DNA of 64,000 nucleotides from IMG/VR virus record IMGVR_UViG_3300046004_000591, positions 1 through 64,000 of that record; one strand, 5' to 3'. The position numbers were made by a program, and so were the translations under genes. Each line of letters starts with the position of its first letter. Positions within the stretch are counted from its first letter, which is position 1. The notes under the pieces were generated by a model. The model saw only the letters and a list, made by a program, of their open reading frames with translations. It did not search any database and was not told the origin of the DNA. Below are positions 3,590 to 62,138 of the stretch, piece after piece. Source of the DNA: a virus.

Positions 3590-4314
3590 TTCAATCAAGA
3601 GAACAATTAAAACAATATTGCCTTAGAACGTTAGGGGTTCCTGTAATTGAAATTAATGTGGATGATTCCCAGTTAGAAGACAGGATTGATGAGGCATTAC
3701 AGTATTATTCTATGTATCATTATGATGGTCTTGAGAGGATGTATCTTAAACATCAGATTACACAAGAAGATTACGACCAAAAATATATCAATCTTCCGTA
3801 TGATGTAAGAGGTGTAACCAGAATCTTCTCATTCAATTATACATCAAGAGACCAATTACTGAATTTTGAGACACAATATCGTTTGGATATTATTGCCAAT
3901 TTACAAACTGCATCTCTTTCAGATTATCAGATTACCATGAATCATTTACAATTAATCGACCACGTACTTGCTGGTCAGATTATGATTAGATTCAATAAGA
4001 ATAATGGTAAATTGTATTTGGATACTAATTGGACTAAATTAACGGTTGGATCTTGGATTGTAATCGATGGATACCAATTGATAGATCCTGAAATTGAAAC
4101 GAGAATGTTCAACGATCCATGGTTGAAATTATATACAACAGCTTTGTTTAAGAAACAATGGGGTTCTAACCTAGCGAAATTCAGTAATATGTTATTACCA
4201 GGCGGAGTGTCCATTGACGGTCAAGGTATTTACGATACAGCTTATTCTGAACAGAAAGAATTAGAACAACAATTAGTGGATGAGCAAGCTCCCGCCGCAT
4301 TATTTATTGGATAA
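3586..4314 (+). CDS. 13: Neck (head completion) protein, T4 gp13-like
   Basis: 242 residues versus 309 in T4 gp13. The N-terminus SREQLKQYCLRTLGVPVIEI with DRIDEALQYYSMYHYDG matches the T4 pattern (LKDVILRRLGAPIINV, ALELYGEYHFDG). The C-terminus MLLPGGVSIDGQGIYDTA parallels T4 MMLPGGVTIDGQRLIEEA. In T4 this protein joins gp14 to form the neck closing the filled head before the tail attaches. The order 13-14-15 is conserved here. Confidence 0.9.
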   Translation: MIQSREQLKQYCLRTLGVPVIEINVDDSQLEDRIDEALQYYSMYHYDGLERMYLKHQITQEDYDQKYINLPYDVRGVTRIFSFNYTSRDQLLNFETQYRLDIIANLQTASLSDYQITMNHLQLIDHVLAGQIMIRFNKNNGKLYLDTNWTKLTVGSWIVIDGYQLIDPEIETRMFNDPWLKLYTTALFKKQWGSNLAKFSNMLLPGGVSIDGQGIYDTAYSEQKELEQQLVDEQAPAALFIG

Positions 4315-4327
4315 TCAAGGAGTTACA

Positions 4328-4978
4328 ATGCCAAGAAATCCATATTTTACGATGGGAACAGCGCCTGAACAGGATATCTTGGAAGATATAATTATCGAAT
4401 CTATCAACATTTATGGATTAGACATGTATTATATCCCAAGATCGTTGGTTGCCAAAGATGATTTACTGGGTGAAGATAGACTTTCGGAATTTAAAAATTC
4501 ATATCCTGTGGTAACATATTTTGAAAGTATAGATGGATTTGAGAGTTCAAGTTATATTCAATCAAAATTTGGATTATCGATAGAACAAACAGCTACATTG
4601 GTCATCGCAAGAAAAGAATGGAGAAATCTAGTTGGTAGATACGGACAATCTATTTTACCAAATAGACCAGCAGAAGGTGATTTAATCTATTTCCCGTTGA
4701 CCAATGGATTGTTTGAAATTAAATTTGTAAATCATCAGGATCCATTCTATCAATTAGGTAAATTGTACGTTTATAAATTATCTGTTGAATTATTCCAATA
4801 TGCTTCAGAACGGTTTTCCACTGGAGTTGAAGAAATTGATGTATTTGAATCTCTTAAAACATTTGATGATGCATCCAACACCGTTGAAGTTTCAGATTCG
4901 TATGGAGATAACGATAATATGATTACACATGGAACTGCTGTTACGTTCAACGATTTAGATCCATTTTCGGGGTTCTAA
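4328..4978 (+). CDS. 14: Neck protein, T4 gp14-like
   Basis: 216 residues from ATG 4328 behind AAGGAG; an in-frame ATG at 4280 lies inside gp13 and lacks a ribosome site. Similarity to T4 gp14 is visible in LEDIIIESINIYGLDMYYIPR (T4 has LVAESIQMRGVECYYVPR), in the following GED, and in FESIDGFESS. In T4 it forms the neck with gp13. Its stop overlaps the start of gp15 (TAATG). Confidence 0.88.
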   Translation: MPRNPYFTMGTAPEQDILEDIIIESINIYGLDMYYIPRSLVAKDDLLGEDRLSEFKNSYPVVTYFESIDGFESSSYIQSKFGLSIEQTATLVIARKEWRNLVGRYGQSILPNRPAEGDLIYFPLTNGLFEIKFVNHQDPFYQLGKLYVYKLSVELFQYASERFSTGVEEIDVFESLKTFDDASNTVEVSDSYGDNDNMITHGTAVTFNDLDPFSGF

Positions 4979-5700
4979 TGTTTCAGACTAATTATTATCC
5001 AGCTATCATCAAGAAGACTATTGCTGCTTTCGGTAAATTATTCTCTGGAATTCAGATTGAACGATACGATACATCTGGTACTTTAATTCAGACAGTGAAT
5101 GTTCCTATAGCATATTCCAATAAGGAAAAATGGGTCACTAGAACGGAACAAGATCCAAATCAGACTAATAATACGCAGATTACGTTACCCAGACTCGCAT
5201 TTGAAATAACAAATTACTCTTACGATTCCTCTAGGAAAGTCAATAAGAATAATAGATTAGGTGTATCTAATACACATAGTTCAAATACACAGTATTCTGG
5301 TGTTCCATATAATATAGATGTTTCATTGTATCTTATTACAAAGACAATCGAAGACGGTCTAATTGTAATGGAAAAGATATTACCAATGTTTGCTCCAAAT
5401 TATACAATATCAATTAATGCTGTTCCAGAAATGAATATTGTAAAGGATGTACCTATTGTATTGAATTCTGTTACAGTTGATGATAATTATGAAGGGGATT
5501 TCCAAACTCGACGCGAAATCATTCATACATTTTCATTTACATTAAAAGTGGATCTATTTGGTTCAATTAAAACATCTGAAATCATTAAACACGTTAATGT
5601 TAATTTACCATTACAACAAGAACGTTACAGAGCATCCGCTTTAATACCAGCAGATGTTCCAGATAATTTATCCGAAGATTTTTGGATACATTCTCCTTAA
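4978..5700 (+). CDS. 15: Proximal tail sheath stabilisation protein, T4 gp15-like
   Basis: 240 residues. The N-terminus MFQTNYYPAIIKKTIAAFG with KLFSGIQIERYD and VPIAYSNKEKW aligns with T4 gp15 (LMGDLFSNIQIKRQ, VPITYASKEHF). The TLPRLAFEI segment matches T4 TILPRINLHL, and RREIIHTFSFTLKVDLFG matches T4 RRRIEWSLTFEVNG. It caps the tail and stabilises the contracted or extended sheath at the head end. Confidence 0.88.
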   Translation: MFQTNYYPAIIKKTIAAFGKLFSGIQIERYDTSGTLIQTVNVPIAYSNKEKWVTRTEQDPNQTNNTQITLPRLAFEITNYSYDSSRKVNKNNRLGVSNTHSSNTQYSGVPYNIDVSLYLITKTIEDGLIVMEKILPMFAPNYTISINAVPEMNIVKDVPIVLNSVTVDDNYEGDFQTRREIIHTFSFTLKVDLFGSIKTSEIIKHVNVNLPLQQERYRASALIPADVPDNLSEDFWIHSP

Positions 5701-5786
5701 CAAATACATGAAAGGTTTAAACTGTCACAATATGTCAGGAAGTTAGAACCTGTACAATTTCTAACGCCATTCATGCGGAGAAACAA

Positions 5787-6596
5787 ATGAAAATCAAGTA
5801 TCATGCAAATAACATTCACAAATTACATTCTAAATTCGATGAAGTTAAATCAATCATCCATGAAGAATCTAATTTACGTTCTGATTCAGATATTCAATTA
5901 TCAAAGAATATTGTAGAGGAATCAACTAGAGCAATCAATGTTGAAGATGAAATTTTAACTACCATTTCAGATGAAATTGAAGCAAGAACAAATGCGGATG
6001 CGTCGGAGAAATTGGAAAGGGTTGCGGGTGATTCTGCGTTACAAACTCAAATTAATAGTATTCTGTCTAATTCGGATCCATTGGCATTGGAAGCACTCAC
6101 TAAGATTTTGGAGGATTTCAAAAAGAATGATTCTAATTTGAATGGTACGATTGTATCGTTATCCACTGCAGCTACATCTGGTATCTCGTTAGAAAAATCC
6201 GAACGAATTGAATCTTATAATGAATTGATGAATTTGTTGGAAGAATCAAATACATCTAAAATTAAATCAGATTCTGAATTAGAAAAAACCATGAAAGAAT
6301 ATTCAGATTTAGTTGCCACGAAAGGTGGTTCTAAACCAAAGAAAGAACGAGTGTTGGTTTCGGATGATAAAATTAAATTGACATATGCTCCAATCAATGG
6401 CGAAGATGGTATCTTGAATTATGGATTGGTTCGTTGTATTGAAATTGTTGAAGGTGAAATGATTGTAGAAGACGCAGAAGTTGAACTTGATAAATCTGAT
6501 GAAGAAGGTAAAACATTCATCTTATCGGATATCGACGGCGAATGGGATAATAAAAAGGTATTGATTCAATATCTATATTGTCCAGAATCTGTTTAA
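5787..6596 (+). CDS. Coiled-coil virion protein, fibritin- or fibre-like
   Basis: 269 residues. Residues 1-150 are heptad-rich and acidic (repeats like EESTRAINVEDEI and EIEARTNADASEKLER). They contain LQTQINSILSNSDPLALEAL, a segment very common in phage fibre and whisker-type coiled coils. The C-terminal 75 residues look like a small beta domain (VLVSDDKIKLTYAP to LIQYLYCPES). Gene position after gp15 fits a neck or fibre structural role; comparison with T4 fibritin is by architecture only. Confidence 0.5.
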   Translation: MKIKYHANNIHKLHSKFDEVKSIIHEESNLRSDSDIQLSKNIVEESTRAINVEDEILTTISDEIEARTNADASEKLERVAGDSALQTQINSILSNSDPLALEALTKILEDFKKNDSNLNGTIVSLSTAATSGISLEKSERIESYNELMNLLEESNTSKIKSDSELEKTMKEYSDLVATKGGSKPKKERVLVSDDKIKLTYAPINGEDGILNYGLVRCIEIVEGEMIVEDAEVELDKSDEEGKTFILSDIDGEWDNKKVLIQYLYCPESV

Positions 6597-6608
6597 AGAA
6601 CACATTTT

Positions 6609-6616
6609 TATAAATA
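6609..6616 (+). promoter_or_regulatory. T4-type late promoter TATAAATA
   Basis: An exact match to the T4 late promoter octamer, 79 bases before the start of the next gene and just after the previous stop. It predicts late, clamp-dependent transcription of the gene at 6695. Confidence 0.65.
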
Positions 6617-6694
6617 ATAATGTAGAGTAAAATCTACAAATCTTCGAGTTCTATTTCATATGGAACTCATTTTAATCCTTCTAGGAGAATAAAA

Positions 6695-7594
6695 ATGGCT
6701 GATGTTGCTTCTACAATCTTACCCATCCAAACTGGTTCTAACGACGGAATGTTCGGCGGTGGTACTTTAGGTGCTGTTCTTTTAGGTTCTTTGTTACCAA
6801 GATTAACTGGAGCAGGTGCACTCGGAGCCGAAGCTGTTGGTATCAATCGCAACGCTGATGTTTTACAAGCAATGAATCAACAACAATTAGCGTCTGCCAC
6901 TCAGATTCTAACTCAAGATGTAAATCGCACTTCTAGAGATGTCTCTCAAGCCGCAGGACAAACGCAAGCTGCTGTTGCTTCAGCGAATTTGGGTCAAACT
7001 GTAGCTACACTTCAAGGTCAAACGGTATTGACTAAAAACATTATGGATTCAACAATCAATAATGCAGCAGGTCACACCAATATCATGAACGGTCAAGCAT
7101 CTTTGGCTGCTGGTATTAATACCAACATGAATGCATTGGCTTCTGATATCAATTCTGGTATTCATCAGTTAGGTGATTCATTAAATGCAATGAACGTTGC
7201 CAACTTGAATGCAACTCATCGTGCTGAAGTTACTGGATTAGAATCTGCTTACAGAACATTACAAGCGATTACAACCGACGGTGATAGAACCCGCGATATG
7301 ATTTCTAACATCAACACAGCAGATTTGAATCGTCAGATCGTTGTTGCAGAAAACAAATTAGCGGAAGCGTTAAACGATCGTAGACATGATAGAGCATCTC
7401 ATGATATTATTATCAACAATAATAACAATGCAACTGCCGTAGCAAATGCTCTTGCTCAACAATCTCAACAACAACAAATTGCCAATATCTCAAGTGGATT
7501 AGCTGCTGCTTTAGCTCATATCCAAACACAGACGCAAACTGTTGTCAACACTGGAAGAATGACGGGAAACTCATTAGGTCAAGTCGCTGTTTAA
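6695..7594 (+). CDS. Late protein of unknown function, Ala/Gln/Asn-rich
   Basis: 299 residues with a strong ribosome site (TAGGAG). An N-terminal Gly/Ala/Leu stretch (about residues 19-50, FGGGTLGAVLLGSLLPRLTG) could insert into membrane or pack in a shell. The rest is a long polar helix rich in Ala, Asn and Gln with little charge. A perfect T4 late promoter precedes it and an intrinsic terminator follows, so it is a late monocistronic unit, probably abundant in the virion. No family recognised; an ejected internal protein or a structural protein are both possible. Confidence 0.55.
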   Translation: MADVASTILPIQTGSNDGMFGGGTLGAVLLGSLLPRLTGAGALGAEAVGINRNADVLQAMNQQQLASATQILTQDVNRTSRDVSQAAGQTQAAVASANLGQTVATLQGQTVLTKNIMDSTINNAAGHTNIMNGQASLAAGINTNMNALASDINSGIHQLGDSLNAMNVANLNATHRAEVTGLESAYRTLQAITTDGDRTRDMISNINTADLNRQIVVAENKLAEALNDRRHDRASHDIIINNNNNATAVANALAQQSQQQQIANISSGLAAALAHIQTQTQTVVNTGRMTGNSLGQVAV

Positions 7595-7664
7595 TTGACC
7601 CATTTATTTCTCAAGACAATGAATCAATTGTATCGAAATCCAGATACGGTTTAATGTCGTTACC

Positions 7665-7691
7665 AAAGGGACTCTAGTAGTTCCTTTTTTT
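7665..7691 (+). terminator. Rho-independent terminator
   Basis: AAGGGACT and AGTTCCTT form a stem (one G-T wobble) with a CTAG loop, followed by seven T. It ends the late gene at 6695. Confidence 0.75.
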
Positions 7692-7742
7692 AATGCCTAA
7701 ATTTTCATGTAAATAATTTTATTTCATACAGGACATTATATT

Positions 7743-8147
7743 ATGTACAATCCGCCTACGTTAAATTTGGATTCTTTACAACAACAATTGGATATTCTAA
7801 AACAACATCAATCAATGCCATTACAACCACCCTACGGCAATTATCCACCTCAACAACCTCCTGTAAATTATCAAGAAATCATCCAGAAAACTGTCCAAGA
7901 TGAAATCCAAAAATTATTAAATACTCAAGTCAAACCACAAGAACAAACTCCCGTTGCTCCACCAATGTCTGAACTTGAAAAACAAATAAATGACTTTGCT
8001 GCTTCTGTTCTAACGCCTGACCAAATGAAATGGTTATCGGATCCTGTTATTGCTTCTCATATTCCCATCTTCTTTAAATCTGTTAAAGGTAAAGAAGCTA
8101 TCGCTTTTCTTGTTGATGAATATAAAACTTATGTTGATGGTAAGTGA
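7743..8147 (+). CDS. Pro/Gln-rich protein, unknown
   Basis: 134 residues. The first half is rich in Pro and Gln (LQPPYGNYPPQQPP), likely disordered; the second half is helical and acidic (LTPDQMKWLSDPVIASH). It lies two genes upstream of the large terminase, where T4 has the small terminase gp16, but no DNA-binding motif or similarity to gp16 can be seen. TerS is a positional guess only. Confidence 0.45.
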   Translation: MYNPPTLNLDSLQQQLDILKQHQSMPLQPPYGNYPPQQPPVNYQEIIQKTVQDEIQKLLNTQVKPQEQTPVAPPMSELEKQINDFAASVLTPDQMKWLSDPVIASHIPIFFKSVKGKEAIAFLVDEYKTYVDGK

Positions 8148-8223
8148 ATTATAGGTATTCAAGGGTGACAGTAAATTTATTATATGTAATTTCATCATTA
8201 ACAATAAAAGATAATTTGAATTT

Positions 8224-9372
8224 ATGTTTAAAGAAATTACATGTAAGGTTTGCGAAACTCCATTCATTCCCAATAATAGATTGAACACATTATGTTCCGA
8301 TAAATGTAAAAAAATATCAGCATTTAATGCTAGATGGAAAACTACAATTGAACGTAGTAGAATTAAATTTCCAGACGATATGGACAAGGACGAATATGTT
8401 GAATGCGGGGTCTGTGGATTCAGAACCAGAGATCTAGCAGAACATCCTAAGACCCACGGATTATCTCAATTAGAATACAGAGAGAAATATGGACCTATAG
8501 TTTGCGTATCTAAATGCAACAGAATTAAAGGTGATAAGAACCCAGCATATCAACACGGTGGTCGATTATCACCTTATTCTAAGAAGTTTATCAAATATGA
8601 AGAATTACCTGACGACTATGTAGAAAATCATATACAGGAATTGTTTAAAACTGCTAGTGACACAAAACGTGAAAATAATAACATATTCAACACCATTGAG
8701 TATCACACGAGTAGAGGTCGTTCCGAAGAGGAAGCGTTAGAAATAATTAGCACCACATGCAAGTTTACATTAGAAAAATGTATTTCTAAATATGGAGAAA
8801 TTGAAGGTAAAGCATTTTGGGAACAAAGACAAATAAATTGGCAAAATACTCTGAATGCTAGAACACAAGATCTTATTGATGAATCTAATAGAAAAAAAGA
8901 TTCATCTTCATTTGATTGGGCTCTTAATAAAACTAATGGTGATGTTGAATTAGCAAATGAATTATATCAATCTAGATCTAAAATAAAAACATCCAAAGTC
9001 AATTTTAGATCGTTATGGAGTAAAGAATTAACCGAAGATGGATATTTTTATGTTATACAATTTGACGATAAAATTAAAATTGGTATTACATTTAAAACAA
9101 AATTACATCATAGATATCCATTACATTTATTGAATACATGCAATACAATTATGTTTCAGAAGATGGAAAATATAAATCATGCATTCCAAACCGAACAGTT
9201 ATTAAAACGTAAGTATAAGAATTACATTAAAAAAGACGATTATGGTGAATTTGGTTGGACAGAAGTTTTAAATGACATTGATTTGGACACACTCATGGAA
9301 GATGTTAATGGATATGTAGAAAATCCAGAACATGTTTATACTTCATTCGATATTATGTTTAAAAGGAATTAA
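8224..9372 (+). CDS. Free-standing homing endonuclease (Zn fingers + GIY-YIG-like)
   Basis: 382 residues. The N-terminus has one Cys4-type finger (CKVC...CSDKC, residues 6-28) and a MucR-like finger (CGVCGFRTRDLAEHPKTHG). A middle block reads CISKYGEIEGKAFWEQRQ, a motif common in phage homing endonucleases. The C-terminal domain FYVIQFDDKIKIGITFKTKL with a downstream Glu/Lys-rich helix resembles GIY-YIG variants of the T5orf172 or MUG113 type. The gene is inserted just before the terminase gene, whose ribosome site lies in its last codons. Confidence 0.75.
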   Translation: MFKEITCKVCETPFIPNNRLNTLCSDKCKKISAFNARWKTTIERSRIKFPDDMDKDEYVECGVCGFRTRDLAEHPKTHGLSQLEYREKYGPIVCVSKCNRIKGDKNPAYQHGGRLSPYSKKFIKYEELPDDYVENHIQELFKTASDTKRENNNIFNTIEYHTSRGRSEEEALEIISTTCKFTLEKCISKYGEIEGKAFWEQRQINWQNTLNARTQDLIDESNRKKDSSSFDWALNKTNGDVELANELYQSRSKIKTSKVNFRSLWSKELTEDGYFYVIQFDDKIKIGITFKTKLHHRYPLHLLNTCNTIMFQKMENINHAFQTEQLLKRKYKNYIKKDDYGEFGWTEVLNDIDLDTLMEDVNGYVENPEHVYTSFDIMFKRN

Positions 9373-11354: not shown

Positions 11355-11728
11355 TATATTATGTAAAGAGTCTTGAAGTAATATAAAAGAAAACTTAATT
11401 GAATCTATAGAACTAACTCAAACCGTCGACATAGTCTAGTATACTGTCTTTTTATCGATTTCGAAAGGAGTTTCTCGATGATTGTAATTTACAGACTCGA
11501 TACATTATTTCATATTAAGAATACTCGATGTCTCTTTCGATATGTTGAATTTACAGTTTCGACGATTATGTTCAATTTAAAACGCCCATATTGTTGATTT
11601 AAGATGGATTCAATGTATCCTGTAGAGTTGATTGACGTATTATACAAAGATTCCACTAGGATGGATTATTGGACAAATAATGGATGTTCCTGTATCAGTT
11701 CAACAAACCAATTATGTAAATTTTATCC
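11355..11728 (-). repeat. Inverted promoter cassette (copy M1)
   Basis: This gene-free stretch between the convergent terminase and HNH-like genes is a minus-strand copy of the cassette found in tandem at 41.6-43.8 kb. It keeps the TCCATTATTTG-like block (11681-11691 inverted), the CAATCAACTCTACAGGAT block, the TCGA-rich segment, the promoter and about 75 bases of the transcribed leader. The leader matches that of tandem copy 5 closely. It has no terminator and no gene on the minus strand before the terminase gene. Confidence 0.8.
11438..11466 (-). promoter_or_regulatory. Cassette promoter, minus strand, directed into terminase 3' end
   Basis: On the minus strand TTTCGA, 17 bases, TATACT, then AGACTATGTCGACGG. 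Identical in layout to the tandem cassette promoters. The predicted start is near 11432, so RNA would run leftward, antisense to the terminase gene. Confidence 0.65.
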
Positions 11729-12469: not shown

Positions 12470-12824
12470 AAGAAAGATAAATCGAAAAGAATCTTGTAGT
12501 AATATAAAAGAATAATCAAGTAGTAATATACACTAACTGAAACGTCGACATAGTCTACTATAATGGAATTTGCTGGAAAAGTCAAGAAGTATTATTATGT
12601 TGATATTTACAAACTCGATGTCTAGAATAGCGATAATGAATCTTTAAGATGTTCTCGATACAGTGAATTTATTGATTCGATGTTAACATTAAATCCTGTC
12701 CAATTATTTGTTGTTTTAAGATGGATTCAAATAGTCCTGTAGAGTTGATTGACATATATCATTAAGATGGATTAACGGACAAATAATGGATGTTTTAAGA
12801 ATCATTTAGAATGTATATTTTACG
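12470..12824 (-). repeat. Inverted promoter cassette (copy M2)
   Basis: Minus-strand cassette upstream of the HNH/AP2-like gene. From the terminator at 12825 it contains the conserved blocks TCCATTATTTG-like, CAATCAACTCTACAGGA and TCGA-rich motifs, then the promoter and a leader beginning ATGTCGACGTTTCAG with the TATATTACTACAAGATTCTTT motif shared with the tandem copies. Here the leader runs into a gene instead of a terminator. Confidence 0.8.
12557..12585 (-). promoter_or_regulatory. Cassette promoter M2 (sigma70-like)
   Basis: Minus strand TTGACT, 17 bases, TATAGT, then AGACTATGTCGACG. Close to the sigma70 consensus and nearly the same as tandem copy 3. Predicted start near 12551. Confidence 0.75.
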
Positions 12825-12861
12825 CAATAAAAATCCCATCAACTTTTCAGCGGATGGGATT
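12825..12861 (-). terminator. Rho-independent terminator
   Basis: Stem AATCCCATC/GATGGGATT with T-run on the minus strand. About 40 bases are identical to the terminator at 17563-17598. Confidence 0.8.
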
Positions 12862-12884
12862 CTAAAACAATACGATTGTTTTTA

Positions 12885-17492: not shown

Positions 17493-17562
17493 ATATTTCT
17501 CCTGTATAAAATGAATGTTTATTATACTTTGAATTTCATCTTAAGATATAAAAATTTTATCC

Positions 17563-17598
17563 AATAAAAATCCCATCAACTTTTCAGCGGATGGGATT
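17563..17598 (-). terminator. Rho-independent terminator
   Basis: AATCCCATC/GATGGGATT with T-run, minus strand; ends the gene at 17604. Virtually identical to the terminator at 12825, which follows a paralogous gene. Confidence 0.8.
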
Positions 17599-17603
17599 CT
17601 AAT

Positions 17604-17885
17604 TTATTTCTCTACGTGGATGACACCAACGACTCCACCTTTTTCAGATGTATTTGGATGTCCATTCACATTTTTATAACCTTGTTTTTCTAAGAATTTA
17701 ACGACCGTATCGATAACTTCTTTTTCATTTTCAACATCCTTTACGTCAACTTTGAAATCTTTATCTTTAGATTTCACGTCAACCTTATCACCATCAACAG
17801 TCACAGCAAACATGATTTTACTTTCGTCTATACGACCAGCAAATTCTTCCATCACCGTTTGTTTAAATTGTTCGAATGCACTCAT
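17604..17885 (-). CDS. Putative internal head protein (capsid-targeting-like N-terminus)
   Basis: 93 residues. The N-terminus MSAFEQFKQTVMEEFAGR is almost identical to that of the gene at 19746 and similar to the gene at 12885. It resembles the T4 internal-protein targeting peptide MKTYQEFIAEA in layout (M-x-T/A-F-x-x-F). The rest alternates Lys and Asp (VDGDKVDVKSKDKDFKVDVK) and is unrelated to the paralogues. Inference: the N-terminal tag sends different small cargos into the prohead. A terminator follows. Confidence 0.6.
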   Translation of the reverse strand: MSAFEQFKQTVMEEFAGRIDESKIMFAVTVDGDKVDVKSKDKDFKVDVKDVENEKEVIDTVVKFLEKQGYKNVNGHPNTSEKGGVVGVIHVEK

Positions 17886-19745: not shown

Positions 19746-20108
19746 TTAAAGTTCGTATTTGTCGTCTAAGATAGAAGGATAAGGTTTATCATTTTTAATG
19801 GCAGCAGCTAGATCTAACGCATAAACTTTGGCATTGTTTAACTTAACAAATACCCATCTACGAGTATCATGCGATTGTTCACCAACTGAATATGACATTT
19901 TCTCACCATAGCATACAGACCATTCTTTATGTTCAGTCTGTAGGATATCAACAACGGTTTCTGGTATATCCCATTTATCTGTGTCAATAACGATTCTATA
20001 CCATTTAGGACTAATCTTTTTGACTACCAATTTTGTTTGTTTTTCTTCATTCAATCGACCAGCAAATTCTTCCATCACCGTCTGTTTGAATTGTTCAAAT
20101 GTGTTCAT
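19746..20108 (-). CDS. Putative internal head protein (capsid-targeting-like N-terminus)
   Basis: 120 residues. Starts MNTFEQFKQTVMEEFAGR, shared with the gene at 17604. The body (LVVKKISPKWYRIVIDTDKW to AAAIKNDKPYPSIL) is a different small alpha/beta-type domain of unknown function. The pattern of one conserved N-terminus on different bodies supports a packaging tag. It ends at its own terminator. Confidence 0.6.
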   Translation of the reverse strand: MNTFEQFKQTVMEEFAGRLNEEKQTKLVVKKISPKWYRIVIDTDKWDIPETVVDILQTEHKEWSVCYGEKMSYSVGEQSHDTRRWVFVKLNNAKVYALDLAAAIKNDKPYPSILDDKYEL

Positions 20109-20286: not shown

Positions 20287-20324
20287 GTTATAATCATCCT
20301 ATGTAAGATTTTAATTTACATTCT

Positions 20325-20352
20325 ATTATAATGATTATCTTTAATGTCGAAA
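20325..20352 (-). promoter_or_regulatory. TTTCGA-16-TATAAT promoter
   Basis: Minus strand TCTTTCGA, 16 bases, TATAATAGAA. It would transcribe the genes at 20137 and 19746. Confidence 0.7.
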
Positions 20353-20359
20353 GACTTTT

Positions 20360-21716: not shown

Positions 21717-21749
21717 TTTAAATTCCTCCAATTAAAAATAATATGTTCT

Positions 21750-21777
21750 ATTATATTTCAATTCATGAATATCGAAA
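21750..21777 (-). promoter_or_regulatory. TTTCGA-16-TATAAT promoter
   Basis: Minus strand TTCTTTCGA, 16 bases, TATAATAGAA, four bases beyond the stop of the CoA-type gene at 21781. Confidence 0.7.
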
Positions 21778-21780
21778 GAA

Positions 21781-23319
21781 TTATTTTACAATAAATCGTT
21801 TGGTGTCCAAATTTAATTTACCAGCTCCTCTGACAAACGATGAACTAATATGTCTTAAATCTGAATCAATCAGAACCATATCAACATACACAAACTCTTT
21901 AATTTGTTGATGCCATTCGCTTGATTCATTGTAATCTTGTACATTTCTAATCCCTCTAATCAAAATTGGTTGATACCCAACAGATTGAATCAAATCAGGA
22001 ATACATTTAACATCTAAATGTTGTTCATATTTCACCAATGTTTTAGTTGAATTCAGATTAAATTGACTTGAATCTTTGTTTGGATTCACTCCTTGTACAA
22101 GAACAACCTTATCGAATAATCGTTCTGCTTTAGTTAATACATCCATATGACCAATTGTAAATGGATTAAATGAACCACAGAACCAACCAATTTTTGGATT
22201 AAATGTATTCAACCATGAAATTGATAATTCAATTCCTCTGATATAAGAACACGAAATTGTTGTAGGATATGTTGAAATTATCTTATCTATCAATCCATTT
22301 AAAATTTTAATTCTTCCTGCTCTGTAATCAACCCAATCAATATGTTGATACTCTTTAAACATTAATTGTTCAACTTCGATGATTTCTTCATCTGTTCTAA
22401 TCCAATGAGAGATATCCGAAAGGAAGAAGTTGGAAATCTTTGGGTCAATAACTTTATAATCAGTCGATCTTATTAAACGACATAGAAGATCGATGTCTAC
22501 ATCTTCATGAATTAAATCCGAATGATACTTGATGAAATTGGAAGCTAAATCTTCATTACAAATCAATTTTGGATCGTATTGGAAATCATGATACAATGTC
22601 AATTCGCCTAATGTTCTTGTGTAATTATCTTGATAGTACAAATCCGTTAATACAGAACGAGTATGGTCAAGATTATGATACGGATTAGTTGAATATCCAT
22701 GAGATAAATCTTTAAATGTTTCCCACCGATTTATTGTATTGAACAATTCATTGATACACGATTCTTCATCGACAATGGAAATAATTGCTTGTTCAATTTT
22801 TGAACGTAATTCCATTAACGTTCCCGTTTCCAATCTTATGTCATTCAAATCATTCTTCAAAGAATTACATGTATAATTTCTCCAATAGATGTCGTCAAAA
22901 ATTGTTGTATCAATCTTACGTTTTGATTTGTTTTCTTTATGATTTGATTTTGGATCTATACAGATAATCTTATCGAATTTCTTAATGAGATTCGGATATG
23001 AAAACAACGCAGATGCTTCCACTATATGGATACCATTTGTAAATTGATTCAACAAATCAATTAAATCTTCTTCAAATAATTGACAATATTCATTGTACAA
23101 TTTCATGTCTGAAAACACTTCTTTAATGATTCTTTCTTTTGACATAGTATCTACATTAAAATGTTTCTGGAAGAACGATACTTTGTCAACATTAAATGAT
23201 TTACAATATTCATCTAAATCGTGATATGTTGCTGATATTGTAGTATCATTTCTTGATTTCAACATCTGAATCGCTTTTGATTTGCCTGATGCGACAGGTC
23301 CTGTAATTCCGATAATCAT
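21781..23319 (-). CDS. CoaE-HD-CoaD fusion: predicted coenzyme A metabolism enzyme
   Basis: 512 residues with three domains. Residues 1-180 resemble dephospho-CoA kinase: P-loop GPVASGKS at 7-14, DLDEY near 34, VEASALFSYP and FDKIICID. Residues 185-350 form an HD phosphohydrolase: YHNLDHTR at 214-221, HD at 244-245, NEDLAS, and SDISHW near 301. Residues 377-512 match phosphopantetheine adenylyltransferase: GSFNPFTIGHMD at 382, LIRGIRNVQDYN at 453, ISSSFVRG at 491. CoaD and CoaE catalyse the last two steps of CoA synthesis. The HD substrate is unknown. The start ATG follows TAAAGAGAG. Possible alternatives are related nucleotide kinase and transferase activities, for instance on NAD precursors, but the CoaD motifs are specific. 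Confidence 0.82.
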   Translation of the reverse strand: MIIGITGPVASGKSKAIQMLKSRNDTTISATYHDLDEYCKSFNVDKVSFFQKHFNVDTMSKERIIKEVFSDMKLYNEYCQLFEEDLIDLLNQFTNGIHIVEASALFSYPNLIKKFDKIICIDPKSNHKENKSKRKIDTTIFDDIYWRNYTCNSLKNDLNDIRLETGTLMELRSKIEQAIISIVDEESCINELFNTINRWETFKDLSHGYSTNPYHNLDHTRSVLTDLYYQDNYTRTLGELTLYHDFQYDPKLICNEDLASNFIKYHSDLIHEDVDIDLLCRLIRSTDYKVIDPKISNFFLSDISHWIRTDEEIIEVEQLMFKEYQHIDWVDYRAGRIKILNGLIDKIISTYPTTISCSYIRGIELSISWLNTFNPKIGWFCGSFNPFTIGHMDVLTKAERLFDKVVLVQGVNPNKDSSQFNLNSTKTLVKYEQHLDVKCIPDLIQSVGYQPILIRGIRNVQDYNESSEWHQQIKEFVYVDMVLIDSDLRHISSSFVRGAGKLNLDTKRFIVK

Positions 23320-23336: not shown

Positions 23337-23582
23337 TTATAATCTATTGTCATTTAAAAACATTCTATCTATCTTTAATTTTTGTTCTATTCCACAATTC
23401 ATGAATTTAGCGTATCCATTATTGTTAACAAAACATTTAAGAATTTCGTCAGTGATATATTTCGAACTGATATTTCCCCTTAGATCTTCGAATGTCAGAA
23501 ACTTATAAAATGATGCAATGTTTGTAATACCATCAACAGACGAAACGTAAATCATGTAAATTAAAATGGGTTCTTTCTTCAT
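23337..23582 (-). CDS. Unknown small protein
   Basis: 81 residues; N-terminal hydrophobic stretch (EPILIYMIYVSSVDGI) then a mixed domain. In an operon with the CoaE-HD-CoaD gene (17 bases upstream of it). Function unknown. Confidence 0.55.
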   Translation of the reverse strand: MKKEPILIYMIYVSSVDGITNIASFYKFLTFEDLRGNISSKYITDEILKCFVNNNGYAKFMNCGIEQKLKIDRMFLNDNRL

Positions 23583-23591
23583 TTTTGTTCC

Positions 23592-23879
23592 TTAGTTATT
23601 TGGTAGTCTAACTTTAACATCTTCAATTTTATGTAAAGATGTAAATCCCCATTCCAATAATTCACCATATTCAATTTCTGTTTCCGAAGAATCATATACA
23701 TTGACAATCTTTGTTTTGAATGTTGGGATGAAATCTTTTAACATTTCCCATTTACTCCACCCTTTACCGAAACCATTAAATCCATACATTCTGTAATACC
23801 ATGATTGATTTTCGCCTTGAGATACATGAACTTGTCTACCAAAGGAATCATGACCTGAGAAAAATTGTAATGATTTCAT
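23592..23879 (-). CDS. Unknown small protein
   Basis: 95 residues, aromatic-rich (WYYRMYGFNGFGKGWSKWEM). First gene after the TTTCGA-type promoter at 23913, so it heads the operon 23879-21781. No family recognised. Confidence 0.55.
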   Translation of the reverse strand: MKSLQFFSGHDSFGRQVHVSQGENQSWYYRMYGFNGFGKGWSKWEMLKDFIPTFKTKIVNVYDSSETEIEYGELLEWGFTSLHKIEDVKVRLPNN

Positions 23880-23912
23880 TTTGTTTACCTCTAAAATGTT
23901 ATTGATGATTCT

Positions 23913-23940
23913 ATTATAACGATTTTGTCAAACATCGAAA
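23913..23940 (-). promoter_or_regulatory. TTTCGA-16-TATAAT promoter
   Basis: Minus strand GTCTTTCGA, 16 bases, TATAATAGAA. It sits directly beyond the terminator at 23957, a terminator-promoter cassette that isolates the operon containing the CoaE-HD-CoaD gene. Confidence 0.72.
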
Positions 23941-23956
23941 GACTTTTCTTTATCCA

Positions 23957-23996
23957 ATAAAAATCCCATTAGAATTTTACATCTAATGGGATTTTT
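23957..23996. terminator. Bidirectional Rho-independent terminator
   Basis: AAAAATCCCATTAGA and TCTAATGGGATTTTT form a strong stem with T-runs on both strands, right after the GNAT gene stop. Confidence 0.85.
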
Positions 23997-23997
23997 G

Positions 23998-24366
23998 TTA
24001 TTTCTTTGGAAATCTGTACATTGATTCAGAGATTTCAAAGTCTTTGTTCTTACCTTTGTTTTCAACAAAATCGAACTTCTTATAAAATTTAATCAATTTG
24101 TTGACATTGCCGCCGAACTCATCCGATGGAGTCAATACAATTAATTGTTTGGAATTATCTGCATAATCAACTATACGTTTCATTGCTTTAGAACCAAGAC
24201 CTTGATTTCTTGATTCTTTTGGAACAACAATTTTTGTTAATTCAATGATGTTATTCTTTTGGAATATATTGACAGCAACTCCAAGATTTTCTAACGACAT
24301 CTTTAACGATTGAATTGATAAATCAACACCCTCAATCAATTTCCAATACTCTAAAAATGATAACAT
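23998..24366 (-). CDS. GNAT acetyltransferase with capsid-targeting-like N-terminus
   Basis: 122 residues. ELTKIVVPKESRNQGLGSKAMKRI is the GNAT acetyl-CoA-binding loop (R/Q-x-x-G-x-G/A), followed by LIVLTPSDEFGGN and KFYKKFDFVEN, the usual C-terminal motif. The N-terminus MLSFLEYWKLIEG has the form of T4 capsid-targeting peptides and includes LIE/G, which fits the gp21 protease site rule L/I-x-E. It may be packaged and injected; the acetylation target is unknown. Overlaps tightly with uvsY upstream. Confidence 0.75.
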   Translation of the reverse strand: MLSFLEYWKLIEGVDLSIQSLKMSLENLGVAVNIFQKNNIIELTKIVVPKESRNQGLGSKAMKRIVDYADNSKQLIVLTPSDEFGGNVNKLIKFYKKFDFVENKGKNKDFEISESMYRFPKK

Positions 24367-41465: not shown

Positions 41466-41510
41466 ATAGGAATTCCTTATTGTGTATGAGATATATTTGT
41501 TCTTTATTAT

Positions 41511-41518
41511 TATTTATT
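41511..41518 (-). promoter_or_regulatory. Late promoter variant AATAAATA
   Basis: Minus strand TTAATAAATAATAATA, 46 bases before the sheath gene start. Confidence 0.55.
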
Positions 41519-41789
41519 AAATCAAAGTGTTCATGTAGTCTATGATTTAATGTATACAATAAGATTATTTATGATGTAAATTTGAATGTTAATCCAAGTT
41601 AAAATGATTTTAATGATATACATCAATCAACTCTACAGGATATTCTGAATCCATCTTATATTGGCAAATTTCCATGTAGGATTAAATGTTAACATCGAAT
41701 CAACTATAATCATGTATCGAAAGAGTCTTAAAGATGACATTCGATAATCTTAAACATCGAGTTTGATTATTACAGGGTAAAGATAATCC

Positions 41790-41818
41790 TTTCGAAATCG
41801 ATAAAACTCGGATATACT
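41790..41818 (+). promoter_or_regulatory. Cassette promoter 1
   Basis: TTTCGA, 17 bases, TATACT, then AGACTATG. Predicted start at or near the A of ATG at 41824. Confidence 0.7.
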
Positions 41819-41823
41819 AGACT

Positions 41824-41998
41824 ATGTCGACGTTTCAGTTAATGTATCTATTGTTTTTAGGTTTTCTTTTATTGTCTTCTATATTACTACAAGGTTCTTT
41901 ATATGCATTAATATATCAATATTCTATACAATTAAAGAACATAAAATCTCTGAGTCTCAGATCCCGATAAGAATGAACAATTCTGTCGGGATTTTTAT
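41824..41998 (+). ncRNA. Predicted small RNA 1 of the cassette array
   Basis: About 175 nt from the promoter at 41790 to a strong terminator (ATCCCGA...TCGGGAT, TTTTTATT). Contains the shared 5' end GTCGACGTTTCAGTTA, a middle TATATTACTACAAG, and a small hairpin TCTG-AGTCT-CAGA at 41949-41961 directly before the terminator stem. A leaderless 49-codon frame (MSTFQLMYLLFLG...) overlaps, but equivalent frames are truncated in other copies. Confidence 0.6.
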
Positions 41999-42249
41999 TA
42001 GATAAAATTTACAGATTTTGTAATTGTATATTACTTCTATATCATCCATTATTTGCTCGTTAATCCATCTTAATGGAATCTTTTCATGTTATAACAATCA
42101 ACTCTATGTCAACAATATAACCCATCTTAAAATCCAAATATGGATGTCTATAATAATTGTTAACATCGAATGAGTAATAATCATGTATCGAAAGAGTCTT
42201 AAAGATGAAAAGGATATCGAGTATGTATATTACAGGGTAAAGTTAATCC

Positions 42250-42278
42250 TTTCGAAATCGATAAAAAGACAGTATACT
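42250..42278 (+). promoter_or_regulatory. Cassette promoter 2
   Basis: TTTCGA, 17 bases, TATACT, then AGACTATGTCGATG. Confidence 0.7.
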
Positions 42279-42283
42279 AGACT

Positions 42284-42468
42284 ATGTCGATGTTTCAGGT
42301 AGAGTTATTAATGGTTTTTAGTATTTTTCTATATTACTTCAAGACTCTTTATAGACTTTATTATATTACTACAAGAGTATTAATATGTCTTTATCGAGTA
42401 ATTATTCAACATTAAAATCTCTGCGCGTCAGATCCCGATTGAATCAAAAGTTCTTTCGGGATTTTTAT
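42284..42468 (+). ncRNA. Predicted small RNA 2 of the cassette array
   Basis: About 185 nt. It has the TATATTACTTCAAGACTCTTTA motif twice in related form, hairpin TCTG-CGCGT-CAGA, and terminator ATCCCGA...TCGGGAT followed by TTTTTATT. The 5' end differs from copy 1 at one base of GTCGACG (GTCGATG). Confidence 0.6.
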
Positions 42469-42728
42469 TAGATAAAATTTACAATATATTGGTTCTATGT
42501 TGAATTGTTAATGTCCATTATTTGCTCGTTAATCCATCCTAGTGGAATATTCCTGTATTATGTCAATCAACTTACAGGATACATTTAACTCGTCTTATAT
42601 TGGCAAATTTCCATGTAGGATTTAATGATAACATCGAATCAACTATAATCATGTATTGAAAGACATACAAGAACATCGAAGGATAATCTAAGGCATCGAG
42701 TATGTAAATATCAACATAAAAATACTTC

Positions 42729-42757
42729 TTGACTTTTCGAGGAAATATCGTTATAGT
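42729..42757 (+). promoter_or_regulatory. Cassette promoter 3 (best sigma70 match)
   Basis: TTGACT, 17 bases, TATAGT. This copy and inverted copy M2 carry a near-consensus -35 in place of TTTCGA, which shows that the element really is a promoter and fixes its direction. Confidence 0.8.
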
Positions 42758-42762
42758 AGACT

Positions 42763-42928
42763 ATGTCGACGTTTCAGTTATTACCTTTAATAACACTTTT
42801 AGATTTTATTATATTACTTCAAGACTCTTTATCGAATTATTATAGTAATATTCTATACAATTAAACAACATATAATCTCTGCGTATCAGATCCCGATAAG
42901 AATGAACAAATTCTGTCGGGATTTTTAT
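42763..42928 (+). ncRNA. Predicted small RNA 3 of the cassette array
   Basis: About 166 nt; 5' end GTCGACGTTTCAGTTA, TATATTACTTCAAGACTC, hairpin TCTG-CGTAT-CAGA, terminator stem identical to copy 1 with a one-base longer loop. Confidence 0.6.
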
Positions 42929-43188
42929 TGTTTGAAATTTTAAGAATTGATATTGTTGGACGAATCATTAACATCCATTATTTGCTCGTTAATGGACTCT
43001 AGTGGAATTTTTCTGTATTATGCCAATCAAGTCTACAAGATACAATGAATCGTTCTTAAATCAACAAATAATTGGGCAGGATTTAACGATTACATCGAAA
43101 CTGTAAACATCATGTATCGAAAGAGTCTTAAGATGACATTCGATAATCTTTAACATCGAGTATGTAAACATCAACGATTAGAAACTCC

Positions 43189-43217
43189 TTTCGAAATCCT
43201 AGAAAAGACAGTATACT
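43189..43217 (+). promoter_or_regulatory. Cassette promoter 4
   Basis: TTTCGA, 17 bases, TATACT, then AGACTATGTCGACG. Confidence 0.7.
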
Positions 43218-43222
43218 AGACT

Positions 43223-43408
43223 ATGTCGACGTTTCAGTTAGTGTATCTATTGCTTTTCTAATATTCTTTTAGATTCTTTATAGACATTAATATATTACTA
43301 CAAGAACATATTATTGTCTTTATCGAGTATATTCTATACAATAATTCAACATTAAAATCTCTGCTTCCAAATCCTGATGAGAACCAACCATTCCATCAGG
43401 ATTTTTAT
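43223..43408 (+). ncRNA. Predicted small RNA 4 of the cassette array
   Basis: About 186 nt. The terminator stem is ATCCTGATG/CATCAGGAT: compared with copies 1-3 (ATCCCGA/TCGGGAT) both partners of one pair changed, a compensatory substitution that supports selection on the RNA structure. The pre-terminator hairpin is degenerate here (TCTGCTTCCAAAT). Confidence 0.6.
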
Positions 43409-43650
43409 TAGATTCAATTTCATATTATAATAGTCTATGTTGATTCGTTAACATCCATTATTTGTCCAATAATCCACCTTAATGGAACGTTTCCAATATA
43501 CACCAATCAACTCTACAGGATACATTTAATACACCTTAAAATCCAAATATGGACGGTCATTTTAAACGACAACATCGAATCAATTATAATCACGTATCGA
43601 AAGAGTCTTAAGGACATCGAATGTGTAAATTACATCCATCTAGAAACTCC

Positions 43651-43679
43651 TTTCGAAATCGATAAAAAGACAGTATACT
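43651..43679 (+). promoter_or_regulatory. Cassette promoter 5, driving the rightward operon
   Basis: TTTCGA, 17 bases, TATACT, then AGACTATGTCGACGG. No terminator follows; the ~147-base leader, almost the same as that of inverted copy M1 at its 5' part, leads into the gene at 43832. Confidence 0.72.
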
Positions 43680-43831
43680 AGACTATGTCGACGGTTTGAG
43701 TTAGTTCTATAGATTCAATTAAGTTTTCTTTATATTCTTATAGTGTCTTCCTCGACTTTAATTATTATGTTTATCTTTCTAAGATACATTTTAACATTTA
43801 TAATACTTTCAACTTAACAAGCGAGGTTTAT

Positions 43832-56586: not shown

Positions 56587-56594
56587 GATTTTTC

Positions 56595-56622
56595 TTTCGA
56601 TGTTTTAAAAACCCTTTATAAT
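56595..56622 (+). promoter_or_regulatory. TTTCGA-16-TATAAT promoter
   Basis: TTCTTTCGA, 16 bases, TATAATAGAT, upstream of the gene at 56689. Confidence 0.72.
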
Positions 56623-56688
56623 AGATTTCAAGTTGGAACAATCCAATGAACTTTAAATCAAACAAATTATTATAAAGGTTGGTATACA

Positions 56689-62054: not shown

Positions 62055-62063
62055 AAATAAATC

Positions 62064-62091
62064 TTTCGATGAACGATAAAATCTTTATAAT
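62064..62091 (+). promoter_or_regulatory. TTTCGA-16-TATAAT promoter
   Basis: ATCTTTCGA, 16 bases, TATAATAGAT, starting the unit with genes at 62139 and 62248. Confidence 0.72.
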
Positions 62092-62138
62092 AGATTCTGA
62101 ATTAAGGGATTCACTCTTACCAAAACAAAGAAATTCTT

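Follow-up and report, generated by a model that had tools for sequence, protein, structure and literature searches.

A phage protein joining CoaE-type kinase, HD phosphohydrolase and CoaD-type domains: a candidate enzyme for the end of CoA synthesis

Introduction

What would a phage do with both last enzymes of CoA synthesis in one chain, with a phosphohydrolase between them? The question is raised by one gene in the 64,000 nucleotides analysed here (the window; positions 1 to 64,000 of IMG/VR record IMGVR_UViG_3300046004_000591). In the animal CoA synthase, PPAT precedes dephospho-CoA kinase (DPCK) in one chain. A preliminary description of the gene, made from the sequence alone, gave the opposite order (CoaE, HD, CoaD) and regarded the HD-bridged form as undescribed in phages. 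CoA genes are known from phages: coaD and coaE have been reported as abundant separate viral genes in snow viromes (PMC11097641), and a CoaD in a Microcystis phage (PMC8093824). If one protein carried both last CoA steps together with a hydrolase, phage control of CoA could be tested directly.

The fusion gene and its transcription unit

The carrier is a large T4-type environmental phage: the window's own record is a virus record of 149,447 bases and includes T4-type genes (UvsW-like helicase, UvsY, topoisomerase II subunits, tail tube protein). A second IMG/VR record, 3300046005_000547 (234,735 bp), encodes the same protein (P0001) at 100% identity. The 21.5 kb around its gene are 99.99% identical to the window, so the two records represent one phage population and possibly one sample.

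The 512-residue fusion is real: it is one ORF, found in two IMG/VR records, its domains have profile and fold matches, and the order is repeated in another virus (L023, below). The domain borders (Table 1) agree with those first proposed. A purine-rich stretch (AGAGAG) lies a few bases upstream of the ATG (by eye). The structure model of the whole protein has a mean pLDDT of 71.

The gene is apparently the third of a three-gene unit preceded by the promoter motif CTTTCGA-N16-TATAATAGA. Five exact copies of this motif are present in the window (20322-20353, 21747-21778, 23910-23941, 56594-56625 and 62063-62094), versus none in 100 shuffles. The unit may end at the copy found immediately 3′ of the fusion gene. 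A nearby GNAT gene had been linked to the fusion as a user of acetyl-CoA. This link is not retained: the GNAT gene lies beyond the terminator-like hairpin (seen by eye) and the promoter motif, and is therefore likely a separate transcription unit, probably not co-transcribed with the fusion.

Table 1. Features of the fusion locus (positions in the window).
Feature	Position	Strand	Remarks
CoaE-HD-CoaD triple-fusion gene (P0001)	21781..23319	-	single ATG-started ORF, 512 aa
CoaE-type P-loop kinase domain, residues 1-183	22771..23319	-	N-terminal; P-loop and DxD
HD phosphohydrolase domain, residues 185-373	22201..22767	-	metal ligands H215, H219, H244, D245, D302
CoaD-type (PPAT) nucleotidyltransferase domain, residues 375-512	21784..22197	-	C-terminal; GSFNPFTIGH, K415, RGIR, ISSSFVR
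Leading gene of the unit (95 aa)	23592..23879	-	no Pfam match up to E 1
Middle gene of the unit (81 aa)	23337..23582	-	without Pfam match at E 1 or less; ends 17 bp upstream of the fusion gene
Promoter motif CTTTCGA-N16-TATAATAGA preceding the three-gene unit	23910..23941	-	motif search
Next copy of the promoter motif, immediately 3′ of the fusion gene	21747..21778	-	same motif, CTTTCGA-N16-TATAATAGA
Terminator-like hairpin (CCCATTAGA...TCTAATGGG, then T run)	23953..23999	-	between the GNAT gene and the three-gene unit; by eye
GNAT gene	23998-24366		upstream of the hairpin and of the 23910-23941 promoter motif

The CoaD-type domain

TIGR01510 matches residues 379-510 with an E value of 3.4e-16. 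The score (59.6 bits) is below the curated cut-off of 103.3, as are those of the other phage proteins scored (L023, 64.5; L012, 59.1; L025, 88.3; L005, 92.4; L046, 77.5 bits). A profile built from four HD-CoaD proteins matches E. coli PPAT at E 8.6e-23. The model of residues 375-512 has the PPAT fold (Z 13.0, 2.6 Å, 130 residues aligned with 3nba); its pLDDT is mostly 80-90 and is poor around residues 420-440.

In H. pylori PPAT, alanine mutants of T10, H18, K42, R88, R91, S128, S129 and R133 have reduced or abolished activity and Pro8 is also required, as reported in PMC12784347, whose residue numbering is taken here as E. coli numbering. By alignment, the eight mutated positions correspond to S383, H391, K415, R455, R458, S492, S493 and R497 of P0001; that of Thr10, now Ser, is the only one of this set to be substituted. 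The position of Pro8 is occupied by C381. The fold, the TxGH-type motif and the equivalents of K42, R88, R91 and S128-S129 are common to P0001 and bacterial CoaD. The pantetheine-side residues Y98, E99, L102 and N106 of E. coli are replaced by E465, S466, W469 and I473, and all four positions are changed in both triple fusions, P0001 and L023. The phage domain thus differs from bacterial CoaD in its pantetheine-side residues, in its score under the TIGR01510 cut-off and in being fused.

The CoaE-type kinase domain

The kinase domain carries a P-loop, GxxxSGKS, as G7-PVASGKS, and a DxD motif as D34-L-D36. The Pfam CoaE model gives E values of 0.016-0.054 (13.6-15.3 bits) on this sequence alone, under the cut-off of 27 bits. 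For the kinase region of L023, CoaE is the best Pfam match (E 5.7e-5, 23.3 bits; 28.2 bits once neighbouring in-frame matches are summed). With a profile of these two sequences, the top PDB chains are the DPCKs 2grj and 2if2 (E 0.006 and 0.014).

The kinase-only model has a pLDDT of 64, residues 123-166 being poor. Its first three Foldseek matches are DPCKs (two entries) at E about 3e-3, and none is under E 0.001. DPCKs also take the first three VIA ranks (Z 9.8, 9.3 and 8.2), the third being 2f6r, the DPCK structure of the animal bifunctional enzyme COASY. KaiC follows at Z 8.0, near the third DPCK, and other P-loop folds at about 7.5; only the first two rows exceed KaiC by more than one Z unit. 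On these models, the kinase fold appears closer to DPCKs than to other P-loop kinases.

Megaphage CoaE-family proteins scoring over the Pfam cut-off can be aligned to the kinase across 117-128 columns, with hhalign E values near 2e-5. A kinase from the L046 record, non-CoaE by family search, aligns slightly better to the kinase profile (E 2.7e-6), so hhalign by itself cannot single out CoaE. This kinase was rejected as a CoaE: Pfam and NCBIfam give AAA_18, AAA_33 and guanylate kinase above dephospho-CoA kinase, and it was removed from both structure alignments for that reason. Searched alone, the kinase domain had no phage match at E 1.

P0001 has the predicted fold, the P-loop, the DxD and the motif order in common with bacterial CoaE. 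It differs by its single-sequence score under the Pfam cut-off and by a shortened lid region; in the alignment, part of the lid segment of the megaphage relatives is missing.

The HD domain

Pfam gives no match to the middle segment at E 1 or less. The segment is matched by phrog_19425, annotated as phosphohydrolase (E 5e-4; 1.6e-4 in the window's own record), and H215, H219, H244, D245 and D302 are the residues that all 13 of 13 reference HD domains have at these positions. An HD domain does therefore stand between the end domains, as had been proposed. The phrog_19425 HD phosphohydrolases, presumably COG4339, have these metal ligands and the NE and EY motifs in common with P0001. The two triple fusions differ from them in being joined to CoaD and CoaE and in one residue: the Arg before the YH pair, found in all 13 references, is replaced by Asn (N212 in P0001, N in L023).

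The HD model also superposes on cyclic-nucleotide phosphodiesterases of class I (4dff; Z 13.1 over 200 residues, 3.9 Å); this match is mostly helical, so the Z is not decisive and does not fix the substrate. With PDE9A, the four-protein HD-CoaD profile gives a weak match (E 0.27).

Profile and structure comparison by domain, as had been suggested, place CoaD on PPATs, the kinase nearest to DPCKs and HD on phrog_19425. Loss of the catalytic residues of both end domains, which would have spoken against the proposal, is not seen: the P-loop, the DxD and nearly all tested CoaD residues are present.

Recurrence and linkage in viruses and bacteria

The survey of homologues found the kinase-HD-CoaD order again in L023, a protein of 523 aa with 42% identity to P0001, encoded by another virus record (10.9 kb; a sheath-like gene is also present, by eye). 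Since the three-domain order recurs at this identity, the architecture of P0001 is not due to chance. Fusions of HD and CoaD without kinase are found in three virus records (L012, L025, L046). An HD gene lies directly 5′ of a CoaD gene in four others (L026-L029; ORFs examined for L026 and L028).

The reverse order, CoaD-HD, is fused in two Methylococcales MAGs (L035, L038). Their CoaDs score 152.6 and 148.4 bits with TIGR01510, over the cut-off, and each fusion is the sole match of the L038 protein query in its genome. In the sample of the order Methylococcales, the full-length reverse fusion is present in 1/61 genomes, the query's own; the second case (G002) is outside this sample. In a Brennerbacteria MAG (L032), the CoaD ORF overlaps the HD ORF, and in L033 the two are about 0.8 kb apart. 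This recurrence, fused, adjacent or clustered, in viruses and a few bacteria suggests an enzyme not described before. That CoaD and HD are fused or adjacent in two orders, in viruses as well as bacteria, is a rare functional clue to this HD family.

In 14 virus records the HD gene stands alone. Thirteen of them also encode a CoaE-family protein above the Pfam cut-off, in 11 of these 13 at 6 kb or less from the HD gene (distances by hand); a CoaD match is found in only four of the 14. As most of the large virus records come from a single related group, this linkage does not represent 13 independent events. G454 and G456 resemble near-copies, and in two of the 14 the CoaD match (G449) or the CoaE match (G455) is of typical bacterial strength, so that these two are possibly not typical phages.

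The scans that found L023, L025, L026-L029 and L046 used HD patterns, with matches confirmed by an HD+CoaD query, and therefore favour CoaD-linked cases. With an HD-only query, a fusion was found at 1/12 loci besides the query's own record. Single-sequence scans for close relatives of P0001 returned the same phage only, so alignments are needed to find relatives. Full-length tblastn gave only CoaD-type matches, in 18 phage and 6 plasmid records.

The HD family is present in 134 plasmid records. It is also present in 11/379 genomes of the phylum of the Brennerbacteria MAG, which we take to be GTDB's Patescibacteria. A CoaD match is found in four of these 11 genomes and HD-CoaD adjacency only in the Brennerbacteria starting genome. 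With the CoaD match missing in 7/11, this is a weak test of HD-CoaD linkage in bacteria; the counts indicate that the phrog_19425-type HD family is not generally a CoA family. CoaBC is absent from the six virus records searched, two of which are those of the P0001 phage.

In the CoaD tree, the fused CoaDs and one stand-alone megaphage CoaD (L005) share one side of a branch (96/94), which does not decide between a single and several origins of the fusion. Branches are long throughout; 5/19 bacterial CoaDs were taken and L027, L029 and L033 were omitted.

Some neighbourhoods have features of their own. In L012, the HD-CoaD ORF starts 4 bp downstream of a gene encoding an RlaP RNA-repair nucleotidyltransferase, and overlaps it if the upstream TTG is the start. 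In L046, positions 3941-7534 encode in series HD-CoaD, NADAR, the AAA_33/AAA_18 P-loop kinase, two small ORFs and a TIGR02306 (DRB0094-type) RNA ligase; an R2K ATP-grasp gene lies 3.3 kb upstream of this row. NADAR adjoins HD-CoaD in 1/7 records. L025 (36.7 kb) carries at 6292-9036 an ORF of 914 aa consisting mostly of VxDSV-type repeats. Three large-phage records (L074, L076, L079) have a common neighbourhood in which the HD gene is accompanied by a peptidase-like gene and by a gene of the CoaE family with a DAD motif; in L074 and L076 a DNA-adenine-methylase-like gene is also located between them (all by eye).

Comparison with known systems

The enzyme families are known; their architecture is without description in the open-licence literature searched. 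In the accessible text of that literature, no report of a CoaE-HD-CoaD fusion or of HD with PPAT was found, and the accessible parts of PMC7824862, PMC4528723 and PMC10853773 contain nothing on such a fusion. The novelty first claimed for the phage HD-bridged form stands within these bounds.

COASY is the closest parallel in having both last CoA enzymes in one protein. P0001 is distinguished from it by DPCK coming first, which confirms the opposite order noted at the outset, by a bacterial-type CoaD, by the HD domain in between and by being phage-encoded. Phage NadR/NadM fusions likewise combine a HIGH-type adenylyltransferase with a P-loop kinase or a Nudix hydrolase; they belong to NAD rather than CoA families and have no HD domain (PMC9503650, accessible part). 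In PANK4, as proposed for P0001, a phosphatase is part of a CoA-pathway protein, where it serves as a brake: the DUF89 domain dephosphorylates 4′-phosphopantetheine, a precedent for a phosphatase within CoA synthesis (PMC9352595). PANK4 differs in that it is eukaryotic, its domains are unrelated, and the partner of DUF89 is of pantothenate kinase type, not CoaD or CoaE.

Proposed function and alternatives

The leading reading, given slightly less than an even chance, is that P0001 is a phage enzyme for the end of the CoA pathway in one protein, with a built-in HD phosphohydrolase. What the domains act on, which way the flux runs, what the HD step does and how the phage gains from it would then be as follows. 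The CoaD domain would convert ATP and 4′-phosphopantetheine (or a close analogue) to dephospho-CoA and pyrophosphate. The CoaE domain would phosphorylate the ribose 3′-OH of dephospho-CoA, yielding CoA. The HD domain may take the phosphate off an intermediate, as a brake or clean-up within the same protein. The phage would in this way set the amount of CoA-type cofactor made from host phosphopantetheine. It had been suggested that the fusion rebuilds, diverts or degrades CoA. The families and the kept catalytic residues fit this idea; the pantetheine-side CoaD residues, which differ in both triple fusions, do not, so CoA can be named only as the presumed substrate. Also weighing against the leading reading are the CoaD score under the TIGR01510 cut-off, the Cys at the Pro8 position, the Asn in place of the HD Arg, the absence of CoaBC from the six records searched and the loose tie of the HD family to CoaD.

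These same residues lend some weight to a substrate shift, in which the CoaE and CoaD scaffolds would keep their ATP chemistry and act on another phosphorylated acceptor; a different nucleotide cofactor, either a pantetheine analogue or some novel compound, would be made or recycled, with HD as the matching hydrolase. Such a shift is unlikely, at perhaps one chance in a few. It accords with the retention of the ATP- and phosphate-side residues next to the changed pantetheine side, with the Asn that replaces the HD Arg in both triple fusions and with the CoaD and CoaE scores of P0001 under the curated cut-offs. In the alignment with six further CoaDs from phages or fusions, E99, changed in the triple fusions, is kept in 6/6 and Y98 in 5/6; however, L102 is kept in only three and N106 in one, so that variation at these two positions is common. 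Moreover, the families nearest to the two end domains catalyse successive steps of CoA synthesis, and NAD-type adenylyltransferase models score far lower on P0001 than TIGR01510 (at most 24.2 bits versus 59.6).

A role at RNA 5′ ends is less probable again. CoaD would place 4′-phosphopantetheine on RNA, or HD and kinase would edit the ends (CoA-RNA capping, decapping, repair). E. coli PPAT caps pppA-RNA with 4′-phosphopantetheine, and ATP strongly inhibits this capping (PMC10761072). It is the capping activity, together with the RlaP gene beside the L012 HD-CoaD and the NADAR, P-loop kinase and RNA ligase genes after that of L046, that gives this role its small share. The record of the P0001 phage also has an RNA ligase gene (65267-65893), about 42 kb off. 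Against it, besides the inhibition by ATP, no RNA-repair gene was recognised among the scanned neighbours of the P0001 gene in the window or, by eye, among the ORFs of L023, and neither the HD nor the kinase domain is convincingly related to DRB0098, the HD-kinase repair protein of Deinococcus. Homology to end healing of the DRB0098 type was rejected: with hhalign, the HD probability is 0.8% over 34 columns and the kinase match is limited to 16 columns of the P-loop. The specific version in which P0001 is a trifunctional RNA-end enzyme (CoaD capping phage or host pppA-RNA, HD decapping or healing, CoaE phosphorylating the tag or the ribose) is a shade more doubtful than the general one. In this version, HD-CoaD would be the core of a new RNA 5′-end system, also found beside RNA-repair genes elsewhere.

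Counter-defence against cofactor depletion, raised in the preliminary description, found no backing: the Pfam and PHROGs scans of the neighbours revealed no defence gene, and no phage defence is known to deplete CoA. It is improbable that HD breaks down a nucleotide signal or that P0001 restores a cofactor which a host defence has depleted. The superposition of HD on class I cyclic-nucleotide phosphodiesterases and its weak PDE9A match, neither decisive, speak for signal cleavage, which would leave the repeated fusion of HD to CoaD unexplained. Finally, a decayed or regulatory fusion, with at least one domain inactive and only binding ligand, would fit the incomplete lid segment and the poorly modelled residues 123-166 of the kinase, yet it is very improbable given that the P-loop, the DxD, the HD metal ligands and nearly all tested CoaD catalytic residues are kept both in P0001 and in L023, which is 42% identical to it.

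Other features of the window

A tandem array occupies positions 41467-43831, with roughly five ~470-nt units whose similarity over 125 nt is 64-73%. It contains no complete ORF longer than 49 aa, and Rfam gave no match. Four units carry a promoter-like block (TATACTAGACTATGTCGACG or close), and the array motif CCTGTAGAGTTGATTG is also found at 11619, 12736 and 27107. The array is possibly a family of phage non-coding RNAs. A near-identical hairpin-like repeat of 49 bp, terminator-like by eye, is present at 12817-12865 and 17554-17602. The short genes 17604-17885 and 19746-20108, of which only the starts were compared, begin with a common stretch of 54 bp (FEQFKQTVMEEFAG, 89% identical) and so appear, from these sequences, to have an N-terminal tag in common.
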